Assembly (NCBI RefSeq): GCF_000021645.1
Contig: NC_011661.1
Location: forward strand, 404,723-468,722
DNA: 64,000 bases
Source: Dictyoglomus turgidum DSM 6724
GTDB lineage: Bacteria; Dictyoglomota; Dictyoglomia; Dictyoglomales; Dictyoglomaceae
Direction: 5' to 3'
The translations under genes and the position numbers were made by a program. Positions 56,235-60,711 of this stretch are shown piece after piece (position 1 is the stretch's first letter; each line of letters begins with the position of its first letter). The notes below the pieces were generated by a model, which saw only the letters and a program-made list of their open reading frames with translations, searched no databases and was not told where the DNA came from.

Positions 56235-57182
56235 TCAAATTTTAGAAAGAAGTACCATGTATAAAGGCATTATCACAACACTAAATAAAGTAGTGTATGT
56301 AATCATGCTTACTGCAAACTCATAGTCTCCCCCATACATTCTTGCCACAATAGAAGAGTTTACCATAACAGGCATTGCAGACATAATTATGAATACATCC
56401 CTCATAAGCTTAGGAATAGGGATAAAAAATTCTAAAATTATTACAAGAACTGGAGTAATTAAAAATCTTCCTAAAAAGGTTAGAATAGCATCCTTATCAA
56501 GTTTAAATTTCTCAAAGCCCATGTGGTACATTGTTATACCCACATAAAATAAAGAGAGAGGAGTAGTAAGGTTGCCAATTAGTTTGAAGCTATCAAATAA
56601 AAATTTGGGAGGTTTAAAATCTATTAAAACTATTACAACACCTATTAAGAATCCAATAAAGGGGGGATTAAAGATCCTCTTTAATAAAACTAAGCTTAAG
56701 ATCTTTTCTCTTTTTTCTTGAGTATCCAAGATAATCCCATAAACTCCAAAGCTCCACCATATGGTAGTATTCGCCATGTAGTAGAGAAGGGTATAAGGTG
56801 TAGCAATATCTCCAAAAAGAGCTTGGGACATGGGAAGCCCTATAAAAATAGAGTTAGAAAGAGAGAAGATTCCTGCTAAAAGTCCTCTCCTTCCTTTTCT
56901 TGTTTTAAAGATTATGGCTAAAAGGTATCCCAAAAAGTAGGATATAAGGATTGATAAAAATGGAATAATAAGTCCTTTTGCAGAAGAAATAAGGTCATTT
57001 TTTGTGAAAAAAGAAGAGATATTTACAATCATGCTTAGAGGAAGACTGAGATTTAAGACTATTTTGGCAAAAAGATCTGCGGTTTTTCCCTCAAACCATT
57101 TTTTATGGGTGAGTATATATCCTATGGCTATAATAATAACTATTTCTAATACTCCTTGTAGAGCAGAGAAAAATACCCTCAT
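56235..57182 (-). CDS. Auxin efflux carrier (AEC) family permease
   Basis: A 315-aa protein with about ten membrane helices in two inverted halves: IIAIGYILTHKKWF, LNLSLPLSMIVNI, SNSIFIGLPMSQALFGD, LTTPLSLFYVGITMY and the closing FIIMSAMPVMVNSSIVARMYGGD. AEC transporters move organic acids such as malate, malonate or lactate, or amino-acid-like anions; the substrate here is unknown. It stands alone 22 bp upstream of tRNA-Leu on the same strand. Confidence 0.88.
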   Translation of the reverse strand: MRVFFSALQGVLEIVIIIAIGYILTHKKWFEGKTADLFAKIVLNLSLPLSMIVNISSFFTKNDLISSAKGLIIPFLSILISYFLGYLLAIIFKTRKGRRGLLAGIFSLSNSIFIGLPMSQALFGDIATPYTLLYYMANTTIWWSFGVYGIILDTQEKREKILSLVLLKRIFNPPFIGFLIGVVIVLIDFKPPKFLFDSFKLIGNLTTPLSLFYVGITMYHMGFEKFKLDKDAILTFLGRFLITPVLVIILEFFIPIPKLMRDVFIIMSAMPVMVNSSIVARMYGGDYEFAVSMITYTTLFSVVIMPLYMVLLSKI

Positions 57183-57494: not shown

Positions 57495-57938
57495 ATGAAG
57501 TTTAAAGGATTTGCAGTTTTGAGTTTAGTGATTTTAGGATTGCTTTCCTTAGCTTATGCTTATGGCCCTAGGTTTGGAGGATATCTTGCTCAAACTAATG
57601 TACAACTTACCAAAATATCGGGTACAGTTAGTAAAATACTAAATACTCCTGCGTTGACAATAACAGTAAAGACAGCAAGTGGAGATAAAGAAGTAATTCT
57701 TGGACCCGCATGGCTACAGATAAAGGAACTGAAAGTAGGAAGCAAGATAGAGATAGAAGGATTTGAGTCTCCAGTAAGCAAGAATTTTAAAGCAGTTAAA
57801 GTTGTAGTGGATGGAAAAGAAGTTTTGAATTTATCAAAGAGTGTAAGTTATGGAAATCCAGGCTTTGGTAGTCCAAGAGGAAGAAGAGGTTTTAAAAATT
57901 ATCAAAATTGTCCATGTTTAAGTTTACAGACTAATTAA
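57495..57938 (+). CDS. Secreted OB-fold-like protein of unknown function
   Basis: A 147-aa protein with a signal peptide (MKFKGFAVLSLVILGLLSLAYA). A compact all-beta domain at residues 40-110 (ISGTVSKILNTPALTITVKTASG, EVILGPAWL, GSKIEIEGFESP, FKAVKVVVDG) resembles bacterial OB-fold proteins that occur near metal and redox genes. The tail is rich in Gly, Arg and Asn and ends with a CPC motif (NCPCLSLQTN), a possible metal or haem site. Neither family nor ligand can be named. SD GTGGAGGTGG is strong, and a terminator follows. Confidence 0.65.
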   Translation: MKFKGFAVLSLVILGLLSLAYAYGPRFGGYLAQTNVQLTKISGTVSKILNTPALTITVKTASGDKEVILGPAWLQIKELKVGSKIEIEGFESPVSKNFKAVKVVVDGKEVLNLSKSVSYGNPGFGSPRGRRGFKNYQNCPCLSLQTN

Positions 57939-57964: not shown

Positions 57965-57996
57965 GGGGAAGCCTAAAAAGCTTCCCCTTTTTTTTA
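57965..57996 (+). terminator. Intrinsic terminator after the OB-fold protein gene
   Basis: GGGGAAGC pairs with GCTTCCCC around a 7-nt loop, followed by eight T. It sits between convergent genes. Confidence 0.9.
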
Positions 57997-58347
57997 ATTT
58001 TCAGAGAGAGCTTTTTTAATAGTAGAAATTGCCTCTTCGGTATTCATGTTTCTTATATCCACACCTACATGTCTTGTTCTATCAAAGCCTGCTTTTTCAA
58101 AAGCATCTCTAAACATTTTTGCTTGCATTTTAGGGTCACATCCTGCAATAACTAATTTTTCAATACTATCTCCATCTTTTACAAAAGTTGAAAGGAAATT
58201 GTCTCCATCATCAGCACAAAGCTGAGGATGAATAGCTACAAAATCAATAAGTCCCTCTCTCCTTAAAGTATTTGCTATCTCAAAAATGTTCATGTTCTGA
58301 AAAGATGGACAGGTTCCTTGACATACACAAAGAAGAAGTCCCTTCAT
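57994..58347 (-). CDS. HdrA-like cysteine-motif domain protein, free-standing
   Basis: A 117-aa protein. LLCVCQGTCPSFQNMNI, AIHPQLCADDGDNFLS and LVIAGCDPKMQAKMF resemble segments found in heterodisulfide-reductase subunit A and related proteins, where they bind an Fe-S cluster or handle sulfur. There is no FAD domain, so it is an isolated module. It overlaps the ferredoxin gene by 4 bp and is the last gene of the ArsR-controlled cluster. A role as electron or sulfur carrier is inferred. Confidence 0.65.
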   Translation of the reverse strand: MKGLLLCVCQGTCPSFQNMNIFEIANTLRREGLIDFVAIHPQLCADDGDNFLSTFVKDGDSIEKLVIAGCDPKMQAKMFRDAFEKAGFDRTRHVGVDIRNMNTEEAISTIKKALSEN

Positions 58348-58580
58348 TGTAGTTCACCTCCATCGGTCATAATTTTTACTTTATCTCCTACAAAACTTAT
58401 TGCTCCCGTAGGGCATGCACCTTTTAAGCATCCCTTACAAAAATCTACACATTCTTCTGGTCTTACTACTATAGGTTTTTTATCTTTTACATCGTAAACT
58501 CCATGTGGACAAAAGTTTACGCAAGCAAGACAACCTATACATTTTTCATAATTAATAACAGGATACCAAGTTTTGGACAT
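58344..58580 (-). CDS. Ferredoxin-type protein with two [4Fe-4S] motifs, one unusual
   Basis: A 78-aa protein. The first motif, CIGCLACVNFCP, is standard. The second, CVDFCKGCLKGACP, has the spacing C-x3-C-x2-C-x4-C instead of C-x2-C-x2-C-x3-C. That resembles ferredoxin domains in some ketoacid:ferredoxin oxidoreductase delta-like and Hdr-related proteins. It probably passes electrons to the HdrA-like partner encoded with a 4-bp overlap. It is the middle gene of the cluster. Confidence 0.85.
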   Translation of the reverse strand: MSKTWYPVINYEKCIGCLACVNFCPHGVYDVKDKKPIVVRPEECVDFCKGCLKGACPTGAISFVGDKVKIMTDGGELQ

Positions 58581-58608
58581 GCTTTTTAACCTCCCTTTTT
58601 ATGAGTGT

Positions 58609-59013
58609 TTATTTATTTAAAACTTCCTTTGCAATTTTCTCTGCTATTCTTTCCACATCTTCATCATCAAAATCTAAAGTAGGAGCTTTTTCTATACCTT
58701 CTTTCGCTATGGTTATCTCGTATGTAGGCTCAATTCCCTGATTTCTTATTACTTTTGAGGCACATTCTAATTGACATCCATTTATAACTATTAATTTTCT
58801 TGCATTTTTAGCAATATTAATATGGACTTTTGAGCCTGCAGCTATGGCACTCAAACAGCACATTCTTGCTCCTTCATTTTCTTTTGTTAATTTAATTGCC
58901 ACTTCATTTCCTACTTGTCCTACCGAGGAGGCACCATCACAGGCCACTATAATGTCAAGATTTTCAGCTTCCGAAGCACAGTGTGGTAAAATTTGCCACC
59001 CACCCTTAGACAT
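58609..59013 (-). CDS. Putative zinc-binding DGC-domain protein
   Basis: A 134-aa protein of the DGC family: VACDGASSVGQVGNEVAIKL carries the DG-C signature in this variant order, GARMCCLSAIAAG has a Cys pair, and ARKLIVINGCQLECASKVI has two more. Seven cysteines in 134 residues suggest metal or Fe-S binding. DGC proteins are of unknown function and are often encoded near metal or sulfur redox genes. It is the second gene after the ArsR regulator, 25 bp apart, on the same transcript. Confidence 0.78.
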   Translation of the reverse strand: MSKGGWQILPHCASEAENLDIIVACDGASSVGQVGNEVAIKLTKENEGARMCCLSAIAAGSKVHINIAKNARKLIVINGCQLECASKVIRNQGIEPTYEITIAKEGIEKAPTLDFDDEDVERIAEKIAKEVLNK

Positions 59014-59038
59014 AACTCATCATCTCCTTTCAAAATTT

Positions 59039-59434
59039 TCATTTCACTGCTTTTGCTATTTCTGACCAACGAGGATCATTTACTCCTATTACGCACTTAT
59101 TTTCTTCCCTTAAAGATACCCTTAATTTTAAAAGCTCCATATTTCTTGAGATTAGTTCATTGGGAATACTTAAAACTGCTTTATATATATTTTTTAAAAA
59201 CTCATCTTCAGGATCTTTTATGGAATAAAGTACTCCTCTTCCTACTCTCTTTTCTTTTACTAGCCCTTCTTTTTTAAGGTCATTTAAATATTTGGAAGTA
59301 TTATAGTGAGACTCTTCAAGAGCATCGGCAATCTCGCAAACATAATACTCTTCTCCCATTTTAAGAAGAAGAGAAAAAACTTTTAATCTTTTTTCTTCGG
59401 AAAGGACTTTAAATATCCTCTCATATCTTTCCAT
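59039..59434 (-). CDS. ArsR-family winged-helix regulator
   Basis: A 131-aa protein with ArsR winged helix: ERIFKVLSEEKRLKVFSLLLKMGEEYYVCEIADALEESHYNTSKYLNDLKKEGLVKEKRVGRGVLYSI. Cys at residue 33 (YYVCEIA) occupies the ELCVCDL-like position that binds arsenite or metals in ArsR, but only one cysteine is there. The C-terminal part has another (NKCVIG). It is the first gene of the minus-strand cluster, and the inverted repeat at 59446-59483 overlaps its promoter, so autorepression is expected. The inducer is unknown. Confidence 0.88.
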   Translation of the reverse strand: MERYERIFKVLSEEKRLKVFSLLLKMGEEYYVCEIADALEESHYNTSKYLNDLKKEGLVKEKRVGRGVLYSIKDPEDEFLKNIYKAVLSIPNELISRNMELLKLRVSLREENKCVIGVNDPRWSEIAKAVK

Positions 59435-59445
59435 TTATAACCCTC

Positions 59446-59483
59446 CATATGCTAATTTTTCCATTTGCCCATATTAGCATATG
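59446..59483. promoter_or_regulatory. Inverted-repeat operator of the ArsR cluster
   Basis: CATATGCTAA (59446-59455) and TTAGCATATG (59474-59483) are exact reverse complements separated by 18 bp. One arm overlaps the -10 of the minus-strand promoter and the other lies between it and the start codon. Long AT-rich inverted repeats of this kind are typical ArsR/SmtB targets. Confidence 0.75.
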
Positions 59484-59499
59484 AAAAATTAAAATTCAA
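59471..59499 (-). promoter_or_regulatory. Promoter of the ArsR/DGC/ferredoxin cluster
   Basis: On the minus strand TTGAAT (59494-59499), a 17-bp spacer and TAATAT (59471-59476). The -10 is covered by the inverted repeat. Confidence 0.7.
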
Positions 59500-59570: not shown

Positions 59571-60711
59571 ATGGAGAATACTGCTCTTTTGAAAAAGAGA
59601 TAGATTCTTATATTTTTAGGAATAATCATCTATGTTTGTCTTGGGACTGTTTACTCATGGAGTGTATTTAGAAAGCCTCTTGAAAGTATTTTACAGATTT
59701 CGGCTTTTCAAAGTGGACTTCCCTATATGCTCTTTTTATTCTTCTTTGTTCTCTTTATGGCATTCTCTGGAAGATATATCAGTAGGTTTTCTCTCAAATT
59801 AATTATTTTCGTAGGAGGACTTTGGGTTGGTATTGGTTGGATCCTTTCTGGAATTTTTAAGAGCATAAATGTCATTGCCATAACTTATGGAATTATCGCA
59901 GGAAGTGGAGTAGGAATAGTATATGGGGTACCTATTTCAGTAATTTCCAAATGGTTTCCAGATAAAAGGGGACTTGCTATGGGGCTTGTAATTTCTGGAT
60001 TTGGGTTATCTCCCCTTTTACTGCACCCTTAGCAAGGTATTGATAGTGCTTATTGGTATGGTATTTAAGCTTCCTCCAGCTAATTTTTCTGTGGGTTCTG
60101 TAAAACTTGAAAAGAAAAAGATATTATCAGAGTTAACCACAAAAGAGATGTTAAAGAACCCTAAGTTTTATGGGCTTTGGTTATGTTATACTGTAGGTAC
60201 TTTAATAGGGCTAATGATTATAGGAATAACGAGTCCTGTAGGAGAAGAAATAGTAGGACTTGATCCTAAATTTACTGCAAGTTTGGTTTCCTTTTTTGCA
60301 ATTTTTAATGCTGTAGGAAGACCCCTTTTTGGATGGATAACAGATAAGATTTTTCCAAGAAAAGCAAGTTTTATCTCTTATCTTATGGCTATAACTGCAT
60401 CTTTCTTTATGATTATAACTGGTGGTAATAATTTGACATTGTATATAATTTCTTTTTCTCTTTTCTGGTTAATTTTAGGATCTTGGCTTGCTATTGCTCC
60501 TGCATCTACCGTTATTCTTTTTGGAGAGAAGAATTATAGACAAAATTATGGTATAGTTTTTACTGCTTATGGTTTTGGAGCAATTCTTGGTGGAATCATT
60601 TCAGTTATGTTGAGGGATATTTGGGGAAGCTATTTTTATGTATTCCATGTAATAATAGGATTGGGTATTATTGGTATGCTTATTGCAGGAATATTATTGA
60701 AAGAAGATTAA
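59571..60711 (+). pseudogene. Major facilitator (oxalate/formate antiporter-like) transporter, multiply disrupted
   Basis: From ATG 59571 the frame reads ten codons to an in-frame TAG at 59601. It then continues in the same frame (LIFLGIIIYVCLGTVYSWSV, GLAMGLVISGFGLS) to 60032. Near the CCCC at 60012 a shifted frame carries PFTAPLARY, followed by a stop and a short deletion. The 60001 frame resumes VLIVLIGMVFKLPPANF and runs intact to 60711 (GIVFTAYGFGAILGG). Joined, these pieces form one 12-helix OFA-type transporter. One nonsense codon, a frameshift and a deletion argue against sequencing error. It is divergent from the ArsR cluster. Confidence 0.85.

Follow-up and report, generated by a model that had tools for sequence, protein, structure and literature searches.

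An ArsR-controlled ferredoxin and a stand-alone HdrA N-terminal domain in Dictyoglomus turgidum: a candidate electron-transfer pair for metalloid defence

Our preferred, if tentative, reading of a four-gene operon of the thermophile Dictyoglomus turgidum is that it encodes an ArsR-autoregulated, low-potential electron-transfer pair which serves an anaerobe's defence against thiol-seeking metalloids, with arsenic as the best candidate; we hold this to be quite possible, somewhat short of probable. The pair consists of a ferredoxin and HdrN, a homologue of the N-terminal domain of HdrA. The genome is a single contig of 1,855,560 bp, and the window, i.e. the whole stretch analysed, covers its bases 404723–468722 (64,000 nucleotides). 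The gene set, the operator, the fold of HdrN, its invariant cysteines and the arsenic-island context of its relatives are all supported by sequence comparisons and predicted models. The features of the operon, in window coordinates, are the following:

59494–59499, minus strand: –35 box TTGAAT, read from the sequence; TTG kept in related promoters
59471–59476, minus strand: –10 box TAATAT with TGC before it (extended –10), read from the sequence; kept in related promoters
59462–59483, no strand assigned: predicted operator CATTTGC-N8-GCATATG, minus strand CATATGCTAATATGGGCAAATG, overlapping the –10 box; from promoter comparison
59446–59456, no strand assigned: second arm of the inverted repeat noted originally; absent from related promoters, the closest included
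59039–59434, minus strand: ArsR/SmtB-type repressor, 131 aa; HTH_5 (Pfam), HTH_metalloreg (NCBIfam)
58609–59013, minus strand: DGC-domain protein, 134 aa; PF08859
58344–58580, minus strand: dicluster [4Fe-4S] ferredoxin, 78 aa; Pfam Fer4_10; core member
57994–58347, minus strand: HdrN, stand-alone HdrA N-terminal-domain homologue, 117 aa; core member, by profile and fold
57965–57987, plus strand: terminator hairpin of the convergent gene 57495–57938, just past the operon end

The original prediction placed the four small genes in one transcript, and this was borne out as far as layout can tell: all four lie on the minus strand, and the gaps of 25, 28 and –4 nt, in the order ArsR, DGC, ferredoxin and HdrN, are consistent with a single operon. 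Around it, the convergent gene 57495–57938 (plus strand) encodes a secreted-looking protein of 147 aa without Pfam or NCBIfam match and is followed by the strong terminator at 57965–57987. A Mem_trans (auxin efflux carrier family) transporter gene (56235–57182, minus strand) lies downstream of the operon, with the opposite-strand gene in between. On the other side, a divergent MFS transporter gene of the lactate/oxalate type (59571–60711, plus strand) is split in two frames (59727–60032 and 60001–60711) with early stops closing its start region, and looks like a pseudogene.

We examined the promoter of the operon together with those of related loci. The –35 and –10 boxes are separated by 17 nt, and the –10 box scored under the threshold of a generic promoter scan. 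The upstream regions of five related loci (L009, L012, L014, L076 and L077) contained the element ATGCTA-NN-AT-NN-GCA(A/T)AT over the –10 box, and L010 contained it more loosely. At one mismatch or less, the motif was found in six promoters, the window included, and at no other place in 258 kb of loci; genome-wide, there was one perfect copy, and the next best had two mismatches. The conserved element over the –10 box in six promoters and its single genomic copy led us to place the operator at 59462–59483. A search for a second operator elsewhere in the genome, as expected of a regulon, returned a single site with two mismatches, a yield no higher than that of a control with the pattern reversed. 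The operator had been located at 59446–59483 on the basis of a perfect 10+10 inverted repeat holding the –10 box. The repeat is real, though it measures 11+11 (59446–59456 and 59473–59483, with a 16-nt spacer), and the pairing of its two arms is not conserved among the related promoters, so that the predicted site was misplaced by about half and its conserved part is 59462–59483. The repeat by itself says little, because the window contains other perfect 11-bp repeats, also with short spacers, at several places; the arm at 59446–59456 is perhaps an auxiliary site or due to chance.

The repressor scored 63 bits against the NCBIfam model HTH_metalloreg (cut-off 55) and also passed Pfam HTH_5. 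A repressor of the ArsR family with a putative operator over its own promoter is the arrangement of an ars operon. The protein holds only two cysteines, C33 and C114, both kept in the ArsRs of L004, L009, L010, L012 and L014. In an alignment to Lmo1102, C33 takes the place of the second cysteine of the alpha-3 C-x-C site, and the pair that marks As(III) sensors is incomplete in the window ArsR, which has this second cysteine alone (Y31-V-C33). Two related ArsR frames (L011 1–405 and L042 2208–2609) start with a DAHP-synthase-like stretch joined at the common word EIADAL, and are probably metagenome chimeras. In the D. thermophilum-like ArsR (L041 2280–2543; L076 8806–9069) the frame seems broken after about 85 aa, with ferredoxin, HdrN and operator intact.

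HdrN had no Pfam match, and its NCBIfam HdrA matches were weak. A profile built from 32 relatives (alignment A1) matched solved HdrA chains over their first ~105 residues in an hmmsearch of the PDB (9sfi, E=4e-6; 7bkb, 4.6e-5; 5odc, 5.3e-4). The AlphaFold (AF2) model of HdrN had a pLDDT of 93, and all seven of its Foldseek matches under E=0.001 were HdrA, with TM scores of 0.71–0.80. Since the profile and Foldseek matches all point to HdrA, HdrN is, by homology at the level of sequence profile and predicted fold, a stand-alone version of the HdrA N-terminal [4Fe-4S] domain; the earlier description of this gene as HdrA-like was correct. Alignment A1 contained five invariant cysteines (C7, C9, C13, C44 and C70). 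The C-x-C motif, C44 and C70 are common to HdrN and HdrA, and C13 is absent from the HdrA alignments and present in 47 of the 48 stand-alone HdrN rows. One ligand of the N-terminal cluster of HdrA, Cys197, is supplied by the partner HdrA subunit (PMC9012536), and C13 may replace this borrowed ligand.

The homology to an HdrA domain might suggest that HdrN works in trans in a heterodisulfide reductase or an electron-bifurcating Hdr complex. We consider this extremely improbable and, for this genome, largely refuted. The FAD-binding thioredoxin-reductase and ferredoxin domains of HdrA were not found by Pfam in the 117 aa of HdrN; a model search of the genome, in which 12 of 14 controls were positive, detected no CCG-domain protein (PF02754, HdrB/HdrD type), and no second HdrA N-terminal domain was detected in the genome either. 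HdrN therefore does not work as a heterodisulfide reductase of the customary type here, as far as the models reach.

The ferredoxin carries eight motif cysteines in two four-cysteine motifs, as in dicluster ferredoxins: motif 1 is C-x2-C-x2-C-x3-C and motif 2, of non-standard spacing, is C44-x3-C48-x2-C51-x4-C56. The unusual C-x3-C-x2-C-x4-C motif, which had been singled out from the window, is present as described but is a family trait: all 30 ferredoxin relatives of alignment A2 contained C-x3-C-x2-C-x3/4-C, 11 of them with x4. Two rows of the same alignment had Asp as second ligand of motif 1. An HgcB identity was rejected (43.6 bits against an NCBIfam cut-off of 99).

A genome scan for HdrN gave 31 loci, and of 386 broadly sampled genomes 21 contained a match (16 short stand-alone proteins and five of HdrA length); two queries found no HdrN on plasmids. 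Bacteria and Archaea of at least 15 phyla were represented among the named loci: Dictyoglomota, Thermotogota, Caldisericota, Atribacterota, Omnitrophota, Stahlbacteria, Chloroflexota, Bipolaricaulota, Bacillota, Thermodesulfobacteriota, Myxococcota, Acidobacteriota, Actinomycetota, Thermoproteota/Methanomethylicota and Thorarchaeota. We took 48 loci and recorded the neighbours within 6 kb of HdrN by BLAST, with the key assignments spot-checked against family models. A ferredoxin gene was within this distance in 44 of the 48, and, judged by these comparisons, the conserved unit is the ferredoxin–HdrN pair. The four-gene order, which the original prediction had suggested looking for across thermophiles, turned up in no group other than Dictyoglomaceae, the label of the nearest relatives of the window genome. 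The lack of a conserved order elsewhere, named beforehand as an argument against a common system, accordingly holds for the four genes, which are local, and not for the two-gene core, which is widespread. The full set varies even within the genus: in one relative (G002; 1,959,987 bp) the ArsR (with a broken frame), ferredoxin and HdrN genes were present and the DGC gene was absent.

The D. thermophilum-like genome has no DGC gene, nor do many relatives, and the four-gene set is therefore optional; gene content across these genomes indicates that DGC is an optional, not a core, member of the module. This absence would suit the view that the four cysteine-rich genes are unrelated neighbours without common function, a view that is nonetheless very improbable, given the linkage of ferredoxin and HdrN across 15 named phyla, the 4-nt overlap of their genes in the window, the location on the HdrN strand of 32 of the 33 ArsR genes within 6 kb, and the conserved operator. 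Chance association is refuted for ArsR, ferredoxin and HdrN, and may apply to DGC alone.

Within 6 kb of HdrN, the 48 loci contained ArsR (29 loci), small thioredoxin (15), CcdA (14), the arsenite efflux permease Acr3 (13), DGC (12), an ArsP-type permease (11), ArsC (6), ArsA (4), ArsD (4), DUF2703 (3) and ArsM (2). At least one arsenic-specific gene (Acr3, ArsA, ArsD, ArsC or ArsM) was present in 15 of the 48, and such genes lay on the strand of HdrN in 29 of 34 cases and on the opposite strand in five. Their density was about 0.08–0.09 per kb within 6 kb and dropped to 0.018 per kb at 6–8 kb, a comparison internal to the same loci. Mapping of the arsenic label onto the HdrN tree forced at least six changes on starred branches, so the arsenic link recurs across lineages and does not come from one clade. 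In Geomobilimonas luticola (L032) the order was Acr3-ArsA-ArsD-HdrN-Trx-Fd-ArsR-DUF2703-ArsP-Trx-Trx-CcdA, with Acr3, ArsA and ArsD accepted by their NCBIfam models at the cut-off, and the permease and CcdA by Pfam; Athalassotoga saccharophila (L028) had ArsR-ArsC-Acr3-Fd-HdrN, and L073 had ArsR-HdrN-Fd-ArsA-ArsD. No arsenic-specific genes were found near the pair in Dictyoglomus, Atribacterota and most Thermotogota loci, and in 11 of the 48 loci, several of them on truncated contigs, where linkage may have been lost, there was neither an ArsR nor any ars, permease or CcdA gene nearby. In the window genome we detected no arsenite efflux protein of the Acr3 type (PF01758), no ArsB (PF02040) and no ArsP (PF03773), except for the Mem_trans transporter of the window, which matches PF01758; an operon directed against arsenic would thus have to work without a known pump. 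Some neighbours resembled the NCBIfam Sao/Tso selenoprotein families only below the cut-offs, and a literature search for TsoR with ArsR found nothing relevant.

The DGC protein is a clear member of its family (113.7 bits against PF08859, cut-off 27), with C25, G79, C80 and C84 invariant in alignment A3. Its AF2 model (pLDDT 91) is alpha/beta and flavodoxin-like. We found no sequence match in the PDB and no Foldseek match at E≤0.001, with weak flavodoxin-like folds only; a homology of DGC to HdrN had no support in profile comparison. The open-access literature returned nothing relevant on DGC or PF08859. DGC relatives without a nearby HdrN adjoin ArsR, permease, small thioredoxin and CcdA genes, and in three loci a DGC domain fused to a GcvH lipoyl domain lies beside ferredoxin–HdrN (L035 987–1850, L036 4639–5532 and L068 6801–7655). 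Both domains were above the Pfam cut-offs in L035 and L036, and the L068 fusion was assigned by BLAST. The fusion sequences contain a lysine of the lipoylation type (E-x-x-K), and lipoate-ligase genes were found near the fusions in L036 and L068.

These lipoyl fusions and ligase genes could also point to a sulfane-sulfur or polysulfide module, in which ArsR would sense persulfide through its two cysteines, and ferredoxin, HdrN and DGC would exchange electrons, in one direction or the other, with sulfur that is persulfidated or lipoyl-bound, on the model of sHdr–LbpA. The sulfane-sulfur sensors sHdrR, SoxR and SqrR have two cysteines, which in sHdrR are Cys50 and Cys116 (PMC12423496), and the window ArsR has exactly two conserved ones; lipoyl proteins are essential for sHdr sulfur oxidation (PMC6067878). 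However, C33 and C114 have a spacing of 81 residues, compared with 66 for the sHdrR cysteines (PMC12423496), C33 aligns with the C-x-C site of arsenic sensors, the ArsRs adjoining most other HdrN pairs carry the full CxC, and among the recurrent neighbours we noticed no sulfur-oxidation or sulfide-quinone genes, while Acr3, ArsA, ArsD, ArsC and ArsM recur. The window ArsR scored 20 bits with the BigR model, against a cut-off of 155. We regard the sulfur module as unlikely. The original prediction had proposed a redox system induced by metal or sulfur stress, and of its two branches the metal(loid) one is best supported (ars genes in 15 of 48 loci and ArsR in 29 of 48), with less support for sulfur.

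A similarly low likelihood attaches to a role in Fe-S protection or repair, in which ferredoxin and HdrN would store or carry clusters and rebuild those damaged by metalloids, together with SmsBC and HesB-like proteins. SmsC-like genes were found near HdrN in 8 loci and SmsB-like genes in 5 (SufC/SufB-type; one or both in 8, both in 5), and HesB/IscA-like genes in 4, which in relatives from the Dictyoglomaceae immediately precede arsR. The window operon has neither an Sms nor a HesB gene, though, most neighbourhoods lack such genes, and the SmsC assignment comes from a BLAST comparison with an ABC ATPase, which belongs to a large family. SufB/SmsB-like and SufC/SmsC-like genes lay beside ferredoxin–HdrN in L014, L021, L069, L072 and L087. 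The HesB/IscA-like gene upstream of arsR was observed in L009/L002, L010 and L012, where the operator fronts hesB, and Pfam PF01521 confirmed it in L009.

For the preferred reading, a defence against metalloids, we infer the inducer, the cluster content, the direction of electron flow and the client as follows. ArsR dimers on 59462–59483 would block the –10 box until their cysteines bound As(III), or a soft metal(loid) related to it, and the repressor was released. Ferredoxin and HdrN would then be made together; the ferredoxin would draw electrons from the reduced-ferredoxin pool of the cell and deliver them to HdrN, whose [4Fe-4S] cluster would be bound by C7, C9, C44 and C70, with C13 in the role of HdrA's borrowed ligand. 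From HdrN, the electrons would reach a thiol/disulfide client, which may be DGC here and, elsewhere, DGC–lipoyl fusions or the small thioredoxin, CcdA and ArsC machinery, so that the client thiols stay in the reduced form in which they could bind the metalloid, reduce it or pass it on. A narrower proposal, which we consider speculative and somewhat unlikely as it stands, is that ferredoxin–HdrN and a DGC or DGC–lipoyl client form an undescribed ferredoxin-driven metalloid pathway of anaerobes, where low-potential electrons passing through the HdrN cluster would reduce or transfer arsenic on DGC or lipoyl thiols independently of NADPH/thioredoxin reductase and, in Dictyoglomus, of any known pump.

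With this operon, two orphan protein types gain a setting and partners: the DGC family and the free HdrA N-terminal domain, the latter overlooked by the present Pfam and NCBIfam models. If the metalloid reading is true, anaerobes from Dictyoglomus to Geobacterales and Thorarchaeota would have ferredoxin tied directly to their defence against arsenic or soft metals, and the ars islands of hot springs and anoxic sediments would have to be read differently. C13, for its part, gives a sharp prediction on how a ligand-borrowing HdrA domain could have become self-sufficient.

In the open-access literature we found no description of the ferredoxin–HdrN pair as an ars component, or with lipoate/sHdr and ArsR; in Fusibacter, ferredoxin and redox-active disulfide genes occur in arsC/acr3 contexts without Hdr-like proteins (PMC9751042). 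Among known systems, the mercury-methylation ferredoxin HgcB is the best NCBIfam match of the window ferredoxin, which differs by falling far under the cut-off, by its 78 aa and by the absence of a C-terminal cysteine pair. In the sHdr–LbpA system, as in L036 and L068, a protein of the Hdr type goes together with lipoate ligase and a lipoyl protein resembling GcvH, but the HdrN loci have only the HdrA N-terminal domain, with no HdrB or HdrC noticed beside it, and their setting is arsenic islands and anaerobes. The DGC family PF08859 differs here in that its fusion with a GcvH lipoyl domain adjoins ferredoxin–HdrN. Ars operons and islands share the ArsR-type autoregulation and, in many phyla, contain ferredoxin–HdrN, whereas in this Dictyoglomus genome no Acr3, ArsB or ArsP efflux gene was detected outside the Mem_trans match. 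Finally, HdrN resembles HdrA in fold, in the C-x-C...C...C positions and in the length of the whole domain, and differs from it in being free at ~117 aa, without flavin and ferredoxin domains, and in carrying the extra invariant C13.
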